Shown here in pieces: positions 1,568 through 11,337 of a stretch of 64,000 bases of DNA. The translations under genes were made by a program, and so were the position numbers. Source of the DNA: Breznakia pachnodae (GTDB lineage Bacteria > Bacillota_I > Bacilli_A > Erysipelotrichales > Erysipelotrichaceae); contig NZ_JAUSUR010000004.1 of assembly GCF_030814225.1 (NCBI RefSeq), forward strand, positions 124,001-188,000, in the 5' to 3' direction. The notes below the pieces were generated by a model. It was given only the letters and a program-made list of their open reading frames with translations. It searched no databases and was not told the origin of the DNA. Positions within the stretch are counted from its first letter, which is position 1. Every line of letters starts with the position of its first letter.

Positions 1568-1921
1568 TTATTGCATTCGCCCTGCTAGTTCGATTTCATC
1601 ATCAGACCATCCAGTTATAAGAATATCTTCATTTACAACCACAGGGAGCTTTAACATGTTTGGCTTCTCCTGAATGAAATGCGCAAGCTGACTAATAGAC
1701 ATATCATCTATATCTTTATGAATTTGCATATATGGTTTTGACCTGGTACTAATTAAATCTGATGTTCCATTCTCACAACGGCTTAACAAATATTTAATTT
1801 CTCCAGTTGATAATTTTGAAGTTTGAATATTCTTTTCTACAAATACCTTTTTATTCTTTATGAGAAAATCTTTAGCTCGTTTCGATCCAACATTTCCCCA
1901 GTTCGTATAAACTACAATCAT
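1568..1921 (-). CDS. Spx/ArsC-family protein lacking the redox cysteines
   Basis: The 117-aa product has the length and layout of the Spx/MgsR/ArsC thioredoxin-like family. The N-terminal strand (MIVVYTNWGNVGSKRAKDFL) aligns with that of Spx, and the C-terminal part (LPVVVNEDILITGWSDDEI) matches the Spx RPI-containing end. Spx has a CxxC switch at residues 10 and 13; here these are Asn and Ser, so no disulfide switch is possible. Spx proteins bind the RNA polymerase alpha subunit and redirect transcription. Whether this one still does is unknown. GGGAGG lies eight bases before the ATG. It is probably part of the island operon. Confidence 0.75.
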   Translation of the reverse strand: MIVVYTNWGNVGSKRAKDFLIKNKKVFVEKNIQTSKLSTGEIKYLLSRCENGTSDLISTRSKPYMQIHKDIDDMSISQLAHFIQEKPNMLKLPVVVNEDILITGWSDDEIELAGRMQ

Positions 1922-1936
1922 TCTTTATACCTCCCT

Positions 1937-2629
1937 TTAGTAAAGTTCTTTTTCAAATCTATGCTCCAATTGATGGATTCCAACTTTTCTATATAATCTG
2001 CTAGTTCTGCATTGCATAGATTTTAATCTATCCCAATAATCTGGTAAGTGATTATACATATTTCTTAATTCTTTTAAATTCTTATTTCCACAACAGAAAC
2101 AACTTGCACGATCTAACAAGTCATATAATCGGAATCCTTCTTCTATGTATTCAATACCATTTTTATAGCAATGATTTAATGCATCAGCTTCTGTCATCTC
2201 CCAATCATTCAATGGAAATACTTTTATTCCTTTTCTCTTCTTTACAATTCTTTGTTGCTCATCATGTGCAAAACCAATATACTCAATATTGCCTCTACAG
2301 TATTTTTCTAAATTCCTGATTTTTTCACTTGTTCCCCATCTTGCAAGACCTCCACACCACGAATATCCTTTTTGGTGAGTTCCATCTCGTTTCCTTACAT
2401 CTTTTTCAAAAGCTAGATAATCAAATGTATGTTCGCTTTTTATTGTTGTAAACTTTATTCCCAAGGTCTCGCATTTCATCTTGTGTTGTTTAATGTTTTC
2501 ATATACAGCATCAAATTCCCATGTTGTATCAAAAAACACGACTTCATCAATTGGCATACCCTTCTCAATCATTAAGTTCAGCATCGCTGTACTATCTTTT
2601 CCCCCGCTGAACTGGACAATATGTCTCAT
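1937..2629 (-). CDS. PP-loop (PAPS-reductase-like) nucleotide-binding protein
   Basis: The N-terminus carries the PP-loop motif SGGKDST at about residues 8-14, which binds ATP pyrophosphate in PAPS reductases, tRNA thiolation enzymes and DndC-like proteins. Two Cys-containing motifs follow, SWCGG (around residue 92) and ASCFCCGNKN (around 178), which could bind metal or an Fe-S cluster. At 230 aa it matches the short versions found on phages and integrative elements. No sulfate-assimilation genes are nearby, so assimilation is unlikely. A nucleic-acid or nucleotide modification role is an inference from known relatives. GAGG precedes the ATG by eight bases. Confidence 0.75.
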   Translation of the reverse strand: MRHIVQFSGGKDSTAMLNLMIEKGMPIDEVVFFDTTWEFDAVYENIKQHKMKCETLGIKFTTIKSEHTFDYLAFEKDVRKRDGTHQKGYSWCGGLARWGTSEKIRNLEKYCRGNIEYIGFAHDEQQRIVKKRKGIKVFPLNDWEMTEADALNHCYKNGIEYIEEGFRLYDLLDRASCFCCGNKNLKELRNMYNHLPDYWDRLKSMQCRTSRLYRKVGIHQLEHRFEKELY

Positions 2630-5406: not shown

Positions 5407-5480
5407 TGGCAGGGGTGACAGGAATTGAACCCGTATCAGCGGTTTTGGAGACCGTTATACTACCATTGTACTACACCCCT
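5407..5480 (-). tRNA. tRNA-Trp (anticodon CCA)
   Basis: The acceptor stem AGGGGTG/CACCCCT, the T-loop TTCAATT within a GGG/CCT stem, and the anticodon loop CTCCAAA (anticodon CCA) are all present. The 3' end CCA is encoded (5407-5409). A promoter TTGAAA, 17 bases, TATTAT precedes it on the minus strand. The accessory island lies immediately downstream of its 3' end, the usual position for elements integrating into tRNA genes. Confidence 0.93.
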
Positions 5481-5634: not shown

Positions 5635-5660
5635 TAAAGGATAATATATAGTTATCTATA
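5635..5660 (+). repeat. Left 26-bp inverted repeat of the invertible segment
   Basis: The 26 bases from TAAAGGATAA to TTATCTATA are the exact reverse complement of 10269-10294. Within the repeat, GATAA (5640-5644) and TTATC (5652-5656) form a dyad around a seven-base asymmetric centre, the layout of a tyrosine-recombinase core site. It ends 13 bases before the ATG of the downstream gene, leaving only the ribosome binding site between. Confidence 0.9.
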
Positions 5661-5673
5661 GGAAAGGATAAAC

Positions 5674-8600
5674 ATGAAATATTTGACTGAAAAATATTGG
5701 ATAAATTTTGAGAAAAAAGTTGTTATTAAAGGGGTAAAAAAGATTATAAAAGATGGAAAAAAATTTGAAAATTTAATAAAAGATTTACTTGCTCTTGAAT
5801 ATGGGGATAATAAATGGGTTCCAACTCAAGATAGTTGGGATGGAAGTAAAGATTTTTATTTTTACAATGACAATAATAAGTGGGCAGAGTGTAAAAATTA
5901 TAAAAGTGATATCTCACTTAATACTTTATCACCAACCTTAGTCATGGCAGAGATAAAAGGTATTGATGAAATTCTATTTTTTTGCTATTCACAAATAATT
6001 GATAATGCTAGATATAAAATAATTAACTTTTGCAATAGAACTAATAAAATTGTAAAGTTTTATGATGATACAACTCTGGAGCAACTAATAATAAAACATA
6101 GAAACAAATTATCAGATTTTTTTGATTTTACTAAGTTAGAAAATGATATAAATTTTATAGAAGATCCACTAATTGATTACTCAATTAATAAAGACTTTTT
6201 AATGAATTATGATGTAAAAATAAACGAAGATGTTATAAAACGCGATTTGCATGATATAAATGTAGACGAATTATTTAGAATTGATATTGCAATTACAAAT
6301 AGAATTATGAAGGAAATTAAAATTCTTTTGAAGTTTGATAATAAAGATATATATCAACTTGAAAATATTGAATTCATTACATTCTCTGAAATGAAATATG
6401 AAAATGCAGTGATAGATATAGATGGTAATGATAGTAAAATTATTAGCATTATTCTTAAAGTGAAATCATATACTGAATGGCTGCATATACCAAATATTGA
6501 AATAGAAGAAGTTAATTCAAAGTTTAAATATAGTATTTCATTTTCATCAATAAAATGTAATTTTTTAAAAACACCAAAATTGATAGGAAGCTCATATAGA
6601 GACAAATTAGATTTATTTAAAAACAAAGGGTTAAGAGAATATTACTTTTCATCATTTTTGTTATTTGGACAAAGTGGAGTAGGAAAAACTAAATTATCAA
6701 AATCCATGTTAGAAGAAGGTTTAAGGAAAAAATTTAATATTCTGAAATTTTATGGCGATAATTCTAATAACAATGACAATTACAGTGTGAATACTTTACT
6801 AAAAGAATTGATTTATTCTGTTTACAATATACCAGATGTAGATACTTTGTATTCTTCCGAAATAGAAATATATGGAGAGAATGATAATTCTAATAATACT
6901 AGTTATGCTTTTCATTTGATAAAGGAAGTTTTTTCGTTAAAAAAGGAGGAAGAAACTATAAAATTTATTGATGAAAAGATAAAAGAATTATTTTATTTGC
7001 TTTTTTCTAATAAGTATTTACTAATTATTGACAATGTACAATATTTTGATAATCTCTCTCTTTTCTTAATACAAAAACTAATTACCTATGGATTAGAAAG
7101 TAATAGAGAATGCAATCTTTGTCTAGTTTTAATATTTAATGTAGATTATATTACTCCGAATTCTAGACTTGAAAAATATTTTGAAAATCTTTTACGTTTA
7201 AACGATAAAATTTATCCTATTCATCTCAAAGGGTTTAAAGACAAAGGAGAATCTAAACAATATCTAAAGCAGTTACTATCTGGCATAGAATTTGATGAGC
7301 AATCATTAAAAAAAATTATAAACAAAAGTTCTAATAATCCATATGTTATTAAAGAAGTTGTTTTATGGCTTGAAGATAATAATTGTATAAAATATGAAGA
7401 TAATAGCTATCATATTCGCGACCACAATAAATTTTCAAAAATGATAGAAATCATACCTGATTCGGTAAATAAACTGCTTGAAAATAGATGGAAAAAGTTT
7501 TGTGAATGCGATAAGTCCCTCAGAATTATATCAGCAATTCATTTTTTAGATGGATTAAAACTAAATGATATAAATTTGTACAATTTATCTAAAGAGAGTA
7601 TTTCATTACTATTAAAACATAAATTTATCTCTATAGATGAAATGGATAAAAATTTATATATCTTTGATCACGATTTAATTGAAAACTTTTTTATTGATAG
7701 AGATAGTTCGTTATCAGAAATTTTCATAAACTGGATAGGACTAGAAAAGCTAAATGATATGAATCTCGATTTTTTTAGAAGTTATTATATACAACTGTTG
7801 ACACCTAATAATAAGAGTAGTCTAAAAGCTCTAAGTTTAGTACTTGATGATTTAAGTTTTTTAGAAATACCTCAAAAATTAAAATATGATTTTTATACAA
7901 TAATTTTTAAGAAACTATTTTTTGCATTTAATCATACAAAAAATAAGAATGATTGGTTAGAATTATGTTTTAAATACCTCCAAATAACTCACCATAATAC
8001 AAAGAATATATTTATTAGAGATTTATATGAAAAGGTATACTCAAAAGTTGAGTTAAGCGAAGAAATACCTAAAATTACCAAAGAATATTATTCATTTATT
8101 CTTTATTATACAGAATTATTGGATTCAATAGGAAATTACAATAAAGCAATACAAATTACTATGAAATTATGTAAACTATTCGAAAAAGAAAAAAATACAG
8201 TATCTAAAAATTATGAATTAAATGTAGGATATAGTTATTTATTAAATCGTCTTAATGTATATGAAAGGCATAAACACAATTTTCCTATCAATAGTTCCAT
8301 CATATTAAATTATCTCGAACAATCACTATCGATTAGCAAAGAAATAAATGATGATATTATGATTTATACAAATTATTCTGATTTTGGATACATGTATTTT
8401 ATTGATAGAAATTACACTAAAACTGTTCTTTCTTATTGGGAGAAAGCGGCTTCTTTTTTTGAAGAAAAAGAAGCAATTGATAGTCCTGTAAAAGAAAAAA
8501 AACTTAACTATTATAGAAAAAAAACACAAATAGCTATTATTTCACATGATTTTAAAATGGCTTCAAAATATTGTTCATATGGAATTGATTACATAGAAAA

Positions 8601-9105
8601 TGGAGAATATTCTTATCAAAAAATACTATTCAGGAGATGGTTTAGTATAGCAAATATAGCAATTCTATTATTGAACTATAGTAATAAAAAGAATAGTGAA
8701 ATTGAGAGTGCTTTACAAAATGCTGATGACTATGAAATATTAATGGATTCTCCTAAAAAATTTGTAGTTTCATATTTGCGTTCAATTTATTACTTTAAGA
8801 TAAGAGATGAGAATAGAATGATAACCTCAATTATACAAACATATTTTTTATTAAAAGATAGTACATATTGCACTTATAAGAGCAATATAATTAATCAGTT
8901 CTTGGATAATATCATTATCATGTGTAAAAATGTAAACATTAAAAAATTAAGACTAGAGTTTGAAGAGTTTGATAATTCTGACTATAATCAAATATTTAGT
9001 ATATTAGGATATTCTATAAATAAATTTAATATTTATATTGATAATTATGAACCTACAGCAATAATTCATGAAGATATATATAAACTTAATTACCCTGAAA
9101 TCTAG
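5674..9105 (+). CDS. PD-(D/E)xK nuclease + STAND-like NTPase, Avs-like defence protein
   Basis: The 1143-aa protein begins with a restriction-endonuclease-like domain: E32, then WDGSKD (D60), then AECK (E72, K74), the Mrr-type PD-(D/E)xK pattern. A P-loop NTPase follows, with Walker A GQSGVGKT at 332-339 and Walker B LLIID at 449-453. From about residue 680 the protein is helical, resembling TPR-like repeats. Antiviral STAND (Avs) proteins share this nuclease, NTPase and helical-sensor order, so an antiphage role is likely but inferred. The gene is very AT-rich and looks foreign. AAAGGA precedes the ATG. It is one of two genes inside the inverted repeats, and no clear promoter is seen on its side. 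Confidence 0.75.
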   Translation: MKYLTEKYWINFEKKVVIKGVKKIIKDGKKFENLIKDLLALEYGDNKWVPTQDSWDGSKDFYFYNDNNKWAECKNYKSDISLNTLSPTLVMAEIKGIDEILFFCYSQIIDNARYKIINFCNRTNKIVKFYDDTTLEQLIIKHRNKLSDFFDFTKLENDINFIEDPLIDYSINKDFLMNYDVKINEDVIKRDLHDINVDELFRIDIAITNRIMKEIKILLKFDNKDIYQLENIEFITFSEMKYENAVIDIDGNDSKIISIILKVKSYTEWLHIPNIEIEEVNSKFKYSISFSSIKCNFLKTPKLIGSSYRDKLDLFKNKGLREYYFSSFLLFGQSGVGKTKLSKSMLEEGLRKKFNILKFYGDNSNNNDNYSVNTLLKELIYSVYNIPDVDTLYSSEIEIYGENDNSNNTSYAFHLIKEVFSLKKEEETIKFIDEKIKELFYLLFSNKYLLIIDNVQYFDNLSLFLIQKLITYGLESNRECNLCLVLIFNVDYITPNSRLEKYFENLLRLNDKIYPIHLKGFKDKGESKQYLKQLLSGIEFDEQSLKKIINKSSNNPYVIKEVVLWLEDNNCIKYEDNSYHIRDHNKFSKMIEIIPDSVNKLLENRWKKFCECDKSLRIISAIHFLDGLKLNDINLYNLSKESISLLLKHKFISIDEMDKNLYIFDHDLIENFFIDRDSSLSEIFINWIGLEKLNDMNLDFFRSYYIQLLTPNNKSSLKALSLVLDDLSFLEIPQKLKYDFYTIIFKKLFFAFNHTKNKNDWLELCFKYLQITHHNTKNIFIRDLYEKVYSKVELSEEIPKITKEYYSFILYYTELLDSIGNYNKAIQITMKLCKLFEKEKNTVSKNYELNVGYSYLLNRLNVYERHKHNFPINSSIILNYLEQSLSISKEINDDIMIYTNYSDFGYMYFIDRNYTKTVLSYWEKAASFFEEKEAIDSPVKEKKLNYYRKKTQIAIISHDFKMASKYCSYGIDYIENGEYSYQKILFRRWFSIANIAILLLNYSNKKNSEIESALQNADDYEILMDSPKKFVVSYLRSIYYFKIRDENRMITSIIQTYFLLKDSTYCTYKSNIINQFLDNIIIMCKNVNIKKLRLEFEEFDNSDYNQIFSILGYSINKFNIYIDNYEPTAIIHEDIYKLNYPEI

Positions 9106-9128
9106 TCTCTTTCTATATGACTAGATTT
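9098..9128. terminator. Bidirectional terminator between the two convergent genes
   Basis: Arms AAATCTAGT (9098-9106) and ACTAGATTT (9120-9128) surround the stop codons of both convergent genes, with A/T-rich flanks on each side. It would stop transcription coming from either direction, so only one of the two genes is read from an outside promoter. Confidence 0.6.
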
Positions 9129-10255
9129 TCTAAGTCAGTATAATTAATGAAATTACCATGTATATCTACTATTAAATCATGGTTTACATTTCGCAGTGTA
9201 GACCATATTTTATTGTCAAATAATGAGGTGAAGTTATCTACGAAATAAATAACAGGAGTAATTAAATCAATTAAATAAGACTCCAATACACCTGAGAGTG
9301 ATATATGTTTTATATTACGTTCTTTTAATGGATAATGATAAACATCATATATATTAAGCTTTAAATTATATTTAAAGAAATCTATATATTCATGAGAAGT
9401 TGGAAAAGTACTTAGGTTTACAATAACATAGTTTTCTTGTATGTTATTTGTATTTTTTTTATACCACTTAAAGCTTTTTGCTAACCAACTTTGGTAATCT
9501 ATGGAGCGAATATTTATATACTTACTATAAAAAGCAGCCTTTGAGTCTTCTCTAAGATATCGGAATGAATAATATTTAGAATTATTATCATTAGTATCAC
9601 CAATATGATAAACACAAGAGTTCGCAGCAACAAATGTATTTAAACCATGTTTTAATAGTTTTAGACAATAAGCATTATCACAATAAATATAAGGCATATC
9701 AGTATCAATACCATTTACTAATTCAAAGTTTTTTTTCGAAGTGAAAAAAATCGCACCACATGCTGATTGAACTTCTCTATCTGATAAAGTATATGGATGA
9801 TTATAAGGGAGCCCCTTTGACATGTGAATGACATTGTAATCTAAGTATGCCATTCCAAAATCCATAATTCTATTGCTAAGAGGATTAATGATTTTTGAAC
9901 TTACAACACCAACATTTTTATTAGAAAAATAGCATTTAATTAATTCTTCTAACCAATTATCCCAATAAAAAATATCAGGATCACAAAACAATAAATATTC
10001 AGTATTTGAAAGCTTTGCGCCTAAATTAATTGCACCTGGCCAAAATAAGTTTTTATTTCTCCTAATCACTTCAATATTTTTTTCTTTAAATTTTAAACTT
10101 AATTGACTTTTATCATAGTTATTTGCAATAACCTTAATTGTAATGTCATTTGGTATTGTTCTTAATAATGTCTTAATACTCAGTTTAATCATTTCCTTAT
10201 TTTTATGAAAAGGTATTATTATTGTTAAATTATCATATATTTCCCTGAAATCCAT
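9113..10255 (-). CDS. Family 2 (GT-A) glycosyltransferase
   Basis: The 380-aa protein starts with a GT2 fold (LTIIIPFHKNKEMIKLSI). The nucleotide-sugar/metal motif DPD lies at residues 92-94, and an acceptor-side region follows (SACGAIFFTSKKNFELVNGID, then YCDNAYCLKLLKHG at about 170). The C-terminal 130 residues have no recognised motif. No membrane segment is seen, so it probably acts at the cytoplasmic face, adding a sugar to a surface polymer or protein. No other glycan genes are nearby. AAGGAGGG lies just before the ATG, immediately inside the right inverted repeat. A promoter outside the repeat (10312-10317) would drive it in the present orientation. Confidence 0.85.
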   Translation of the reverse strand: MDFREIYDNLTIIIPFHKNKEMIKLSIKTLLRTIPNDITIKVIANNYDKSQLSLKFKEKNIEVIRRNKNLFWPGAINLGAKLSNTEYLLFCDPDIFYWDNWLEELIKCYFSNKNVGVVSSKIINPLSNRIMDFGMAYLDYNVIHMSKGLPYNHPYTLSDREVQSACGAIFFTSKKNFELVNGIDTDMPYIYCDNAYCLKLLKHGLNTFVAANSCVYHIGDTNDNNSKYYSFRYLREDSKAAFYSKYINIRSIDYQSWLAKSFKWYKKNTNNIQENYVIVNLSTFPTSHEYIDFFKYNLKLNIYDVYHYPLKERNIKHISLSGVLESYLIDLITPVIYFVDNFTSLFDNKIWSTLRNVNHDLIVDIHGNFINYTDLENLVI

Positions 10256-10268
10256 ATTTCCCTCCTTG

Positions 10269-10294
10269 TATAGATAACTATATATTATCCTTTA
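10269..10294 (-). repeat. Right 26-bp inverted repeat of the invertible segment
   Basis: Exact reverse complement of 5635-5660. Similarity continues outward imperfectly (TA, one mismatch, then the repeat). It lies between the outer promoter and the ribosome binding site of the glycosyltransferase gene. The segment between the repeats is about 4.6 kb. No direct target duplication flanks the repeats, which argues against a transposon. Confidence 0.9.
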
Positions 10295-10311: not shown

Positions 10312-10320
10312 ATTATACCA
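10312..10320 (-). promoter_or_regulatory. Extended -10 promoter pointing into the invertible segment
   Basis: On the minus strand the sequence TGGTATAAT matches an extended -10 (TGnTATAAT), with TATAAT at 10312-10317. There is no clear -35, as is usual for extended -10 promoters. The predicted transcript starts near 10305 and runs through the repeat into whichever gene lies next to it. Confidence 0.6.
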
Positions 10321-10397: not shown

Positions 10398-11309
10398 ATG
10401 CGATTAGACTATTCTACAATTGATAACTATATCAATTACTGTGAAAACCAAAGAAAACTAGGAAAGCAAACCATAAAGGCTTATAAGATAGATATGAATC
10501 AATTCCATTGTTTCTGTAAAAACTTTGATTACATAGTAGATAAGACAACTCTACAAAGATATATGGAGCATCTTAATAAAGCTTATAAATCAAAATCAGT
10601 GAAACGGAAGATTGCTACAATCAAAGCCTTTTTTAATTATTTAGAATTTGAAGAAAAAATAGAATTAAATCCTATGAGAAAAATAAGAGTATCTATTAAA
10701 GAACCTATTACCTTGCCTAAGACTATTCAACATAATGATTTAGATAATCTATATAAATTATTATACAGTTGGAAGAAGGAAATAAACGAAGAAAAAGAAT
10801 ACAACAATATTCTAAGAGATATTTGTATATTAGAGTTATTAATATCAACTGGTATTAGAGTATCAGAAATATCTGACTTAAAACCTTCAGATATCAATTT
10901 ATCTGAAAAGAATATCTTAATAAGTGGTAAAGGAAATAAAGAAAGAATTGTGCAGATTGGAAGTAAAGAATTATATGACATATTAAGTGAGTATATGTTA
11001 GATACACAAGTACAATCCAATCCATATCTTTTTATGAATAAACGTAAGTCTAGAATATCCGATCAATCAATTCGAATGCTTATATCAAAATATGCAAAAC
11101 TTGCTGGTATAACAGAACGTATCACACCACATATGTTTCGCCATACATTTGCGACGTACTTGTTAGAGGAAGATGTTGATATTCGTTATATCCAAAAGAT
11201 ACTAGGTCATTCTTCAATTACAACAACCCAAATATATACACATATTGCTTCTAGTAAACAACGATATATATTAGAGAATAAGAATCCCAGAAGTAGAATA
11301 CACACATAA
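10398..11309 (+). CDS. XerC/D-like tyrosine recombinase, probable site-specific invertase
   Basis: The 303-aa protein has an N-terminal SAM-like DNA-binding domain (about 1-95) and a complete catalytic domain. The active-site set is present: R154 (STGIR), K178 (GKGNK), H245 and R248 (HMFRH), H271 (LGHSS) and nucleophile Y280 (QIYTH). XerC/D proteins resolve chromosome dimers, and close relatives in Firmicutes and Bacteroidetes invert promoters and genes. Here the gene sits about 100 bases outside the right inverted repeat, so it is the natural candidate to invert the neighbouring segment. A chromosome-dimer role cannot be ruled out from sequence alone. GGAGG precedes the ATG by six bases. Confidence 0.88.
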   Translation: MRLDYSTIDNYINYCENQRKLGKQTIKAYKIDMNQFHCFCKNFDYIVDKTTLQRYMEHLNKAYKSKSVKRKIATIKAFFNYLEFEEKIELNPMRKIRVSIKEPITLPKTIQHNDLDNLYKLLYSWKKEINEEKEYNNILRDICILELLISTGIRVSEISDLKPSDINLSEKNILISGKGNKERIVQIGSKELYDILSEYMLDTQVQSNPYLFMNKRKSRISDQSIRMLISKYAKLAGITERITPHMFRHTFATYLLEEDVDIRYIQKILGHSSITTTQIYTHIASSKQRYILENKNPRSRIHT

Positions 11310-11310
11310 A

Positions 11311-11337
11311 AATAGCAGCGTTTTGCTGCTATTTCTT
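11311..11337. terminator. Terminator between recombinase and P-type ATPase genes
   Basis: Nine-bp stem AATAGCAGC (11311-11319) and GCTGCTATT (11325-11333) with loop GTTTT, followed by T's on the plus strand and A's on the other side. It serves the recombinase gene and probably also the convergent ATPase gene. Confidence 0.75.

Follow-up and report, generated by a model that had tools for sequence, protein, structure and literature searches.

A 4.6-kb DNA segment of Breznakia pachnodae is probably a two-state switch: the tyrosine recombinase encoded beside it would invert the segment and so alternate which of its two genes is transcribed. The segment lies in a 64-kb stretch of contig NZ_JAUSUR010000004.1, referred to here as the window, which belongs to an assembly of 4.30 Mb in 22 contigs. 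Two copies of one recombination site bound the segment in inverted orientation, the arrangement by which DNA inversion systems are recognized. The recombinase would exchange strands between these identical, oppositely oriented sites, and each orientation of the 4.6-kb segment would place another gene, encoding either a STAND-type protein or a family 2 glycosyltransferase (GT2), behind transcription entering from outside. Among relatives of the recombinase the gene is linked to such a site, and segments invert.

The 26 bp of the left repeat are the perfect reverse complement of the right repeat (Table 1), exactly as claimed in the original prediction, which was made from the letters of the window. 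Ungapped extension of the pair gives 42 nt at 86% identity. This is the longest exact inverted repeat of the window; the runner-up has 17 nt, and 30 composition-keeping shuffles contained none longer than 18 nt. A 22-nt stretch of the repeat is present in the whole assembly only as the two window copies, with up to three mismatches allowed. The genes between the repeats are convergent, with stop codons 7 nt apart, and their start codons are 17 and 18 nt from the 17-bp core sites. The Shine-Dalgarno-like motifs AGGAAAGGA and AAGGAGGG, read by eye, are positioned between core sites and start codons, which agrees with the ribosome binding sites predicted just inside the repeats. Because this spacing leaves no room for a promoter belonging to either gene, and because the genes stop at a hairpin, one gene per orientation would be transcribed from outside. 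The hairpin has a folding energy of -12.2 kcal/mol (z -5.05) on the forward strand and -10.5 kcal/mol (z -3.94) on the reverse strand; it is not among the calls of a consensus terminator scan of the window.

Table 1. Features of the invertible segment and its surroundings (window coordinates)
Feature	Position	Strand	Basis or remark
tRNA-Trp	5407..5480	-	nearest gene found beyond left repeat, transcribed away from repeat
Left inverted repeat	5635..5660	+	core site GATAATATATAGTTATC at 5640-5656
STAND-type protein, 1143 aa	5674..9105	+	probable Mrr-like nuclease N-terminus and P-loop NTPase
Hairpin between convergent genes, possible bidirectional terminator	9097..9129	.	folding energy
Family 2 glycosyltransferase (GT2), 380 aa	9113..10255	-	Glycos_transf_2 E=2.1e-14
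Right inverted repeat	10269..10294	-	core site 10273-10289, same core reversed
Extended -10 TGGTATAAT, predicted promoter into segment from recombinase side	10312..10320	-	motif scan
Tyrosine recombinase, 303 aa, presumed invertase	10398..11309	+	Phage_integrase E=2.4e-44
Terminator-like hairpin 3' of recombinase gene	11310..11334	+	

The recombinase gene starts 103 bp beyond the right repeat and is transcribed away from it, in line with the XerC/D-like gene predicted about 100 bases outside. Residues R154, K178, H245, R248, H271, and Y280, which we take to be the catalytic positions of tyrosine recombinases, are invariant in an alignment of 11 members. The protein resembles XerC and XerD in overall sequence; however, it scores below the curated cut-offs of the XerC model TIGR02224 (E=3.1e-71, 240.2 bits versus 335.15) and of the XerD NCBIfam model (236.3 versus 329.6 bits). 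It also remains below the cut-offs of two models of tyrosine-type DNA invertases (NF007370, 61.8 of 221; NF007371, 55 of 222). In the order, 257 of 294 genomes have a XerC/D-like match at E<=1e-50, and 25 of 294, including that of B. pachnodae, carry a recombinase of this group, with at least 275 bits. The remaining matches score at most 230 bits, except for a broken fragment of 261 bits in an already counted genome.

The relatives analysed are the best 80 of 202 from a search of genome contigs with the recombinase, and are 44-52% identical to it. The site was defined as GATAA-N7-TTATC with at most one mismatch over the ten arm positions, within 320 bp of the recombinase gene. It is present beside the recombinase in 61 of the 80 relatives, compared with 35 of 400 pairs of random 320-bp windows from the same loci, which links the recombinase to the site. 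A partner site with the same core (at most one mismatch) is located 1.6-7.7 kb away in 29 of the 80 and is inverted in all 29; no partner in direct orientation occurs among the 80. The cores vary from locus to locus and agree within each locus. The majority consensus of 67 sites, read inward, is AATAAAGGATAAY-N5-RTTATC, in which the conserved outer arm exceeds the short inner arm in length. Where the near site has no partner (32 relatives), the sequence past the site is shorter than 8 kb in 26, and at most 121 bp in 17 of these. Contigs from IMG/VR yielded 46 loci, only three of them at 45-47% identity, and two of the three (L122, L124) have the site. The probability that the window contains a chance repeat next to an unrelated XerC/D-type gene is negligible: XerC/D-like genes are common in the order, but the repeat is longer than any in the shuffles, the close relatives of the recombinase separate from other matches by score, and the site accompanies most of the best 80.

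Segments invert in relatives. The assembly of Lachnospiraceae bacterium 28-4 contains two scaffolds (L099, L100) that are identical over 4594 bp on the recombinase side. Positions 1-91 of L099 are the reverse complement of positions 4246-4336 of L100: beyond the site, one scaffold runs on into the far inner end of the other, reversed. Both junctions are thus present in one assembly. Ten genomes were searched for sites. In four metagenome bins (G302, G300, G299, and G301), an inner end (33, 43, 49, and 22 bp common, respectively) is joined to two unlike outer flanks; the alternative junction of G299 involves a second core, not the core beside the recombinase. In G295, G296, and G304, contigs fork at the site or within 16 bp of it, and in G295 the segment forms a separate contig of 3077 bp with the site at either end. 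For G297, G298, and G303, the core recurs on no other listed contig. Many of the assemblies are metagenome bins, in which forked contigs can also result from a mixture of strains; 28-4, HBUAS56010 (G295), and YN15 (G296) are not labelled as metagenome-assembled genomes. Between two species (L079 and L092), the segment is reversed, at 83 and 88% identity, whereas the recombinase and its downstream flank are in forward orientation, with the boundaries at the sites; the comparison rests on the recombinase and this flank, since the other flank of L079 is outside the sequence compared. Contig ends also accumulate at the sites: of 34 ends situated up to 10 kb away on the cassette side, 18 are at most 130 bp from the site, whereas none of 21 on the opposite side is within 300 bp, the nearest being 1264 bp away. 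Another assembly break at a site is found in L205, where copies of the same site (16912, 17029) border a stretch of N in the scaffold at either end.

The relatives thus support the predicted invertible segment: the association of repeat and recombinase, the inverted pairs, and, in several assemblies, the alternative junctions or orientations are all found among them. That the repeats instead mark, without any inversion, the fixed termini of an integrated mobile element or island, with the recombinase as its integrase, is very improbable. The G+C content of the segment (0.24, versus 0.27-0.38 in 2-kb blocks outside) and the adjacent tRNA gene would fit such an element, but the recombinase gene is outside the repeats, direct partner sites are absent from the 80 relatives, and single assemblies of relatives contain alternative junctions.

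The expression side of the switch rests on promoter and terminator predictions. The original prediction, that inversion exchanges the gene behind an outside promoter, is corrected in one respect: a promoter outside the segment is indeed predicted, on the recombinase side only. As this sole extended -10 reads into the segment from there, the glycosyltransferase gene is predicted to be on and the STAND gene off in the sequenced orientation; inversion would reverse this. A survey of 37 cassettes (74 flanks, up to 120 bp outside the site; L114-L117 were dropped as near-copies of L113) revealed inward extended -10 motifs in 23 of 74 flanks, where shuffling gave an expectation of 6.4; outward motifs number 9. 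Where the recombinase gene diverges from the cassette, the motif is confined to the recombinase side in seven cassettes, including that of the window, and is never confined to the far side; one cassette has it on both sides. Where the gene points toward the cassette, the motif is confined to the far side in nine and to the near side in three, and one cassette has it on both. A one-sided hypergeometric test of 7:0 versus 3:9 gives p ~0.002. A general -35/-10 scan singled out neither side. Two further candidates were rejected. A promoter inside the site was considered, given the likeness of GATAAT to a -10 box, but the positions 14-19 nt upstream show no excess of -35-like hexamers. A terminator between recombinase and near site is present in only 6 of 34 loci in which the recombinase reads toward the site (control, 37 of 680), and is therefore not a general feature. 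In 22 of these 34 loci, 0-60 nt separate the recombinase stop codon from the site and no terminator was found; transcription of the recombinase gene may therefore continue into the near gene.

Cassette anatomy was compared in 49 cassettes: that of the window, those of the 29 paired relatives, L063, L106, nine plasmid or phage records (L113-L121), L122, L198, L202, L204, L205, L207 (two), and the G295 contig. They are partly dependent, since L113-L117 represent a single locus on five plasmids. The sites of Aliarcobacter (L118-L120) deviate from the consensus. Convergent genes starting near the sites were found in 42 of the 49 (40 by script; L116 and L117 by annotation). In the 40 script-convergent cassettes, start and site are a median of 22.5 nt apart, with a distance of at most 60 nt at 63 of 80 ends. 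Some cassette arms carry two to four genes.

A gene for a STAND-like NTPase, TIR, SIR2, or Mrr protein was detected by Pfam, clustering, or Walker A motif in 27 of the 49 cassettes, although many NTPase matches fall short of Pfam curated cut-offs, and the assignments of L039, L051, L073, L076, L108, L112, L119, and L205 have the weakest support (Walker A, TPR, or E >0.001). The scan covered part of the cargo genes and left out L122 entirely. The partner genes recur. ATP-grasp partners are present in ten cassettes (L046, L051, L098, L118, L119, and L204 by Pfam; L064, L090, L106, and L108 by clustering), GT2 partners in five (window, L039, L063, L073, L091), and serine hydroxymethyltransferase-like (SHMT-like) partners in five (L076, L112, L198, L205, L234). 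The prediction that whole genes of unrelated function swap places holds for the whole genes, but the pairing is not arbitrary: a STAND-type gene is opposite GT2 in the window, L063, L039, and L073, the STAND call being weak in the last two. TIR is opposite SIR2-STALD in four cassettes (L065, L088, L093, and L121; SIR2-STALD of L088 by clustering), and in L065 PADLOC identifies a Thoeris system, with ThsA1 (E=5e-104) beside ThsB (E=2.5e-9). Other cargo includes radical-SAM and ATP-grasp domains (L100), a carbamoyltransferase (L081), methyltransferases, GNAT proteins, a polyprenyl synthetase, and genes without match. A structural model of the partner protein of L098 and L106 has a mean predicted local distance difference test score (pLDDT) of 38 and was not used.

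The side occupied by the enzyme was determined for 21 pairs (excluding L067 and L234) that set a recognized enzyme against a partner of immune type or large size on the other arm. The enzyme adjoins the recombinase in 13 (window, L046, L051, L063, L064, L076, L081, L090, L108, L112, L119, L198, L204) and occupies the distal arm in 8 (L039, L073, L091, L098, L106, L115, L118, L205), indicating that both states occur. A wider reading, which we regard as possible but somewhat doubtful, is that these loci form a widespread family of recombinase-driven flip switches. Within a clone, a STAND, TIR, or SIR2 gene of immune type and the gene of a biosynthetic enzyme would exclude each other, so that every population would comprise cells with the armed sensor or effector alongside cells making the product of the partner, and the conserved sites would accept one cassette in place of another.

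Interchange of cassettes also underlies an alternative to the two-state switch. The sites could serve mainly to dock two-gene cassettes for exchange between DNA molecules; inversion would be a by-product, and the two genes would cooperate and be expressed in both orientations, perhaps at differing ratios. We consider this unlikely. Plasmids of Streptococcus salivarius and S. equinus carry a recombinase 40.6-41.6% identical to that of the window in the same position, with the same core and, where compared, near-identical outer flanks, around three cargos: polyprenyl synthetase and a gene without match (L113, L114), aminotransferase and STAND-TPR (L115), and a gene without match and methyltransferase (L116, L117). 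However, homologous recombination could account for these swaps. The pairs recur like functional units (STAND opposite ATP-grasp, GT2, or SHMT; ThsA opposite ThsB), and possible co-transcription of the near gene in the 22 loci described above would suit expression in both orientations. Against this stand the inverted sites with matching cores, which permit inversion in cis, and the opposite junctions within single assemblies. Moreover, L079 and L092 have radical-SAM operons on both arms, with first genes 53% identical, as expected of alternatives. The arms of these two loci are two versions of one function.

Several observations weigh against the two-state switch. Inversion in B. pachnodae itself is predicted from the relatives, this genome being covered by a single assembly. 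The -35/-10 scan gives the window promoter little support (near side p 0.48, far side p 0.69), 16 of the 37 surveyed cassettes have no extended -10 on either side, and two have it on both. Seven of the 49 cassettes are non-convergent. Thoeris requires both of its proteins, ThsA and ThsB. Pairs in which ThsA is opposite ThsB therefore fit either/or expression badly. Six of the 80 relatives have a near site with no partner across 8.5-9.9 kb, and 19 have no site inside 320 bp, although two of these (L063, L106) have a site pair farther off. In the order, regions from 20 of the 25 genomes bearing the group were surveyed (L195 is the same locus as L065), and only six have a near site with exact arms (L195, L198, L202, L204, L206, L207), that of L206 being partnerless. 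In addition, a site pair lies 2.5 kb away in L205, and L201 and L214 each show a partnerless near site with one mismatch; the rest have none. The recombinase gene contains a stop codon in five of the other 14 regions, yet also in L202 and L207, which have paired sites.

Some loci contain more, or fewer, sites than one pair. In L207 (5442/8777 and 9856/11625), the recombinase gene is positioned between two cassettes with different site cores. Its enzyme might have run two switches; the frame holds an internal stop codon. Two unlike cores are near each other in L103 (1-17, 1111-1127, and 4062-4078) and at both ends of L239 (G299:C29), which suggests neighbouring switches. Solo sites with extended palindromic arms are present in L071 (10932-10948), L083 (4832-4848), and L084 (7290-7306), with no partner in 9.8-9.9 kb; they are possibly remnants of lost cassettes, or terminators.

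The 1143-residue product is probably a STAND-type protein with a nuclease domain. It has an AAA_22 match (E=2.2e-5, under the curated cut-off) and a Walker A motif, GQSGVGKT, at residue 332, downstream of the N-terminal domain. It is 25% identical over 667 positions to the protein of L063, the N-terminus of which matches Mrr_cat (E=2.6e-8). N-terminal residues invariant in an alignment of the window, L063, L039, and L050 proteins include F-E, T, D-G..D, and W.E.K, which fit the PD-(D/E)xK nuclease motif. The predicted structure of the N-terminal part is a low-confidence model (mean pLDDT 46, with blocks in residues 21-150 reaching 60-83); its top PDB match in Foldseek is AspBHI (E 5.8e-4), followed by RNA polymerase subunits, EcoT38I, and MspJI. 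Antiviral Avs4 combines a nuclease-like N-terminus with a STAND NTPase, and the Avs class adds a C-terminus of repeats. The window protein likewise has a probable nuclease-like N-terminus and a NTPase of STAND type, with Avs4 at Foldseek rank 22 (E 0.018) for the low-confidence model. Its Pfam matches include no repeat family, and it has no match in PADLOC; NCBIfam scans also gave none, and neither window gene matches a PADLOC family at E<=0.001. The protein may have an immune function.

The G segment of phage Mu and the C segment of P1, inverted by Gin and Cin, are segments of a few kilobases with two alternative, oppositely oriented gene sets, transcription from outside, and an adjacent invertase gene. 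The window segment shares this plan, in that a few-kilobase, probably invertible segment would offer alternative genes to outside transcription next to a recombinase gene. It differs in using a tyrosine instead of a serine recombinase, and its family carries immune-type and enzyme genes instead of tail-fibre genes. The best-known switches of tyrosine recombinases flip a promoter or reshuffle parts of one gene. The PsrA inversions of Streptococcus pneumoniae reportedly rearrange the hsdS coding sequence, whereas the window genes are intact and change place. Like the window family, the PsrA system, in the available part of its description, combines a tyrosine recombinase and inverted repeats with defence-related cargo (PMC7096588). 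In the mba/UU376 and UU172/UU171 switches of Ureaplasma, as far as the accessible text describes them, the inverting piece comprises a 5' gene end and a spacer and is set before either gene; the outcome of the UU172/UU171 switch is like that proposed for the window, in which, however, whole genes invert (PMC3047005). Inversions across many bacteria include promoter-bearing or regulatory invertons, hsdS recombination, and invertons that intersect genes, according to the available portions of two surveys (PMC5903667, PMC11892184). Together with the accessible account of Clostridioides difficile switches, these likewise document site-specific inversion and population heterogeneity in Bacillota and other gut bacteria (PMC5903667, PMC11892184, PMC5386303). 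The parts of the surveys at hand describe no swap of two whole genes, in contrast to the window (PMC5903667, PMC11892184). Recombinases often adjoin anti-phage genes, with their defence function stated to be unknown in the available part of the source (PMC12529663). In the literature searched, with bioRxiv and most subscription journals outside its scope, no switch exchanging such whole gene pairs is described.

In this family, recognizable recombinases with their own site consensus invert complete, mostly convergent gene pairs, about half of the examined cassettes encoding proteins of immune type. If expression is either/or, immunity would be a clonally split, heritable state in these bacteria, with bearing on phage resistance, on inventories of defence genes from single genomes, and on assembly. 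The pair of recombinase and site may serve as a marker for two-gene systems such as the two window genes, which PADLOC did not match.

No close copies of the window cassette were found among viral contigs searched with a 24-nt pattern or among plasmids searched with the 1143-aa protein. The genome of B. pachnodae contains six further GATAAY-N5-RTTATC places, with cores different from those of the window. It has five matches to the recombinase, and the three listed lie away from these six places. Left of the tRNA-Trp gene, PAPS-reductase-like and ArsC-like open reading frames (window 1568-2629) are possibly part of an integrated element.

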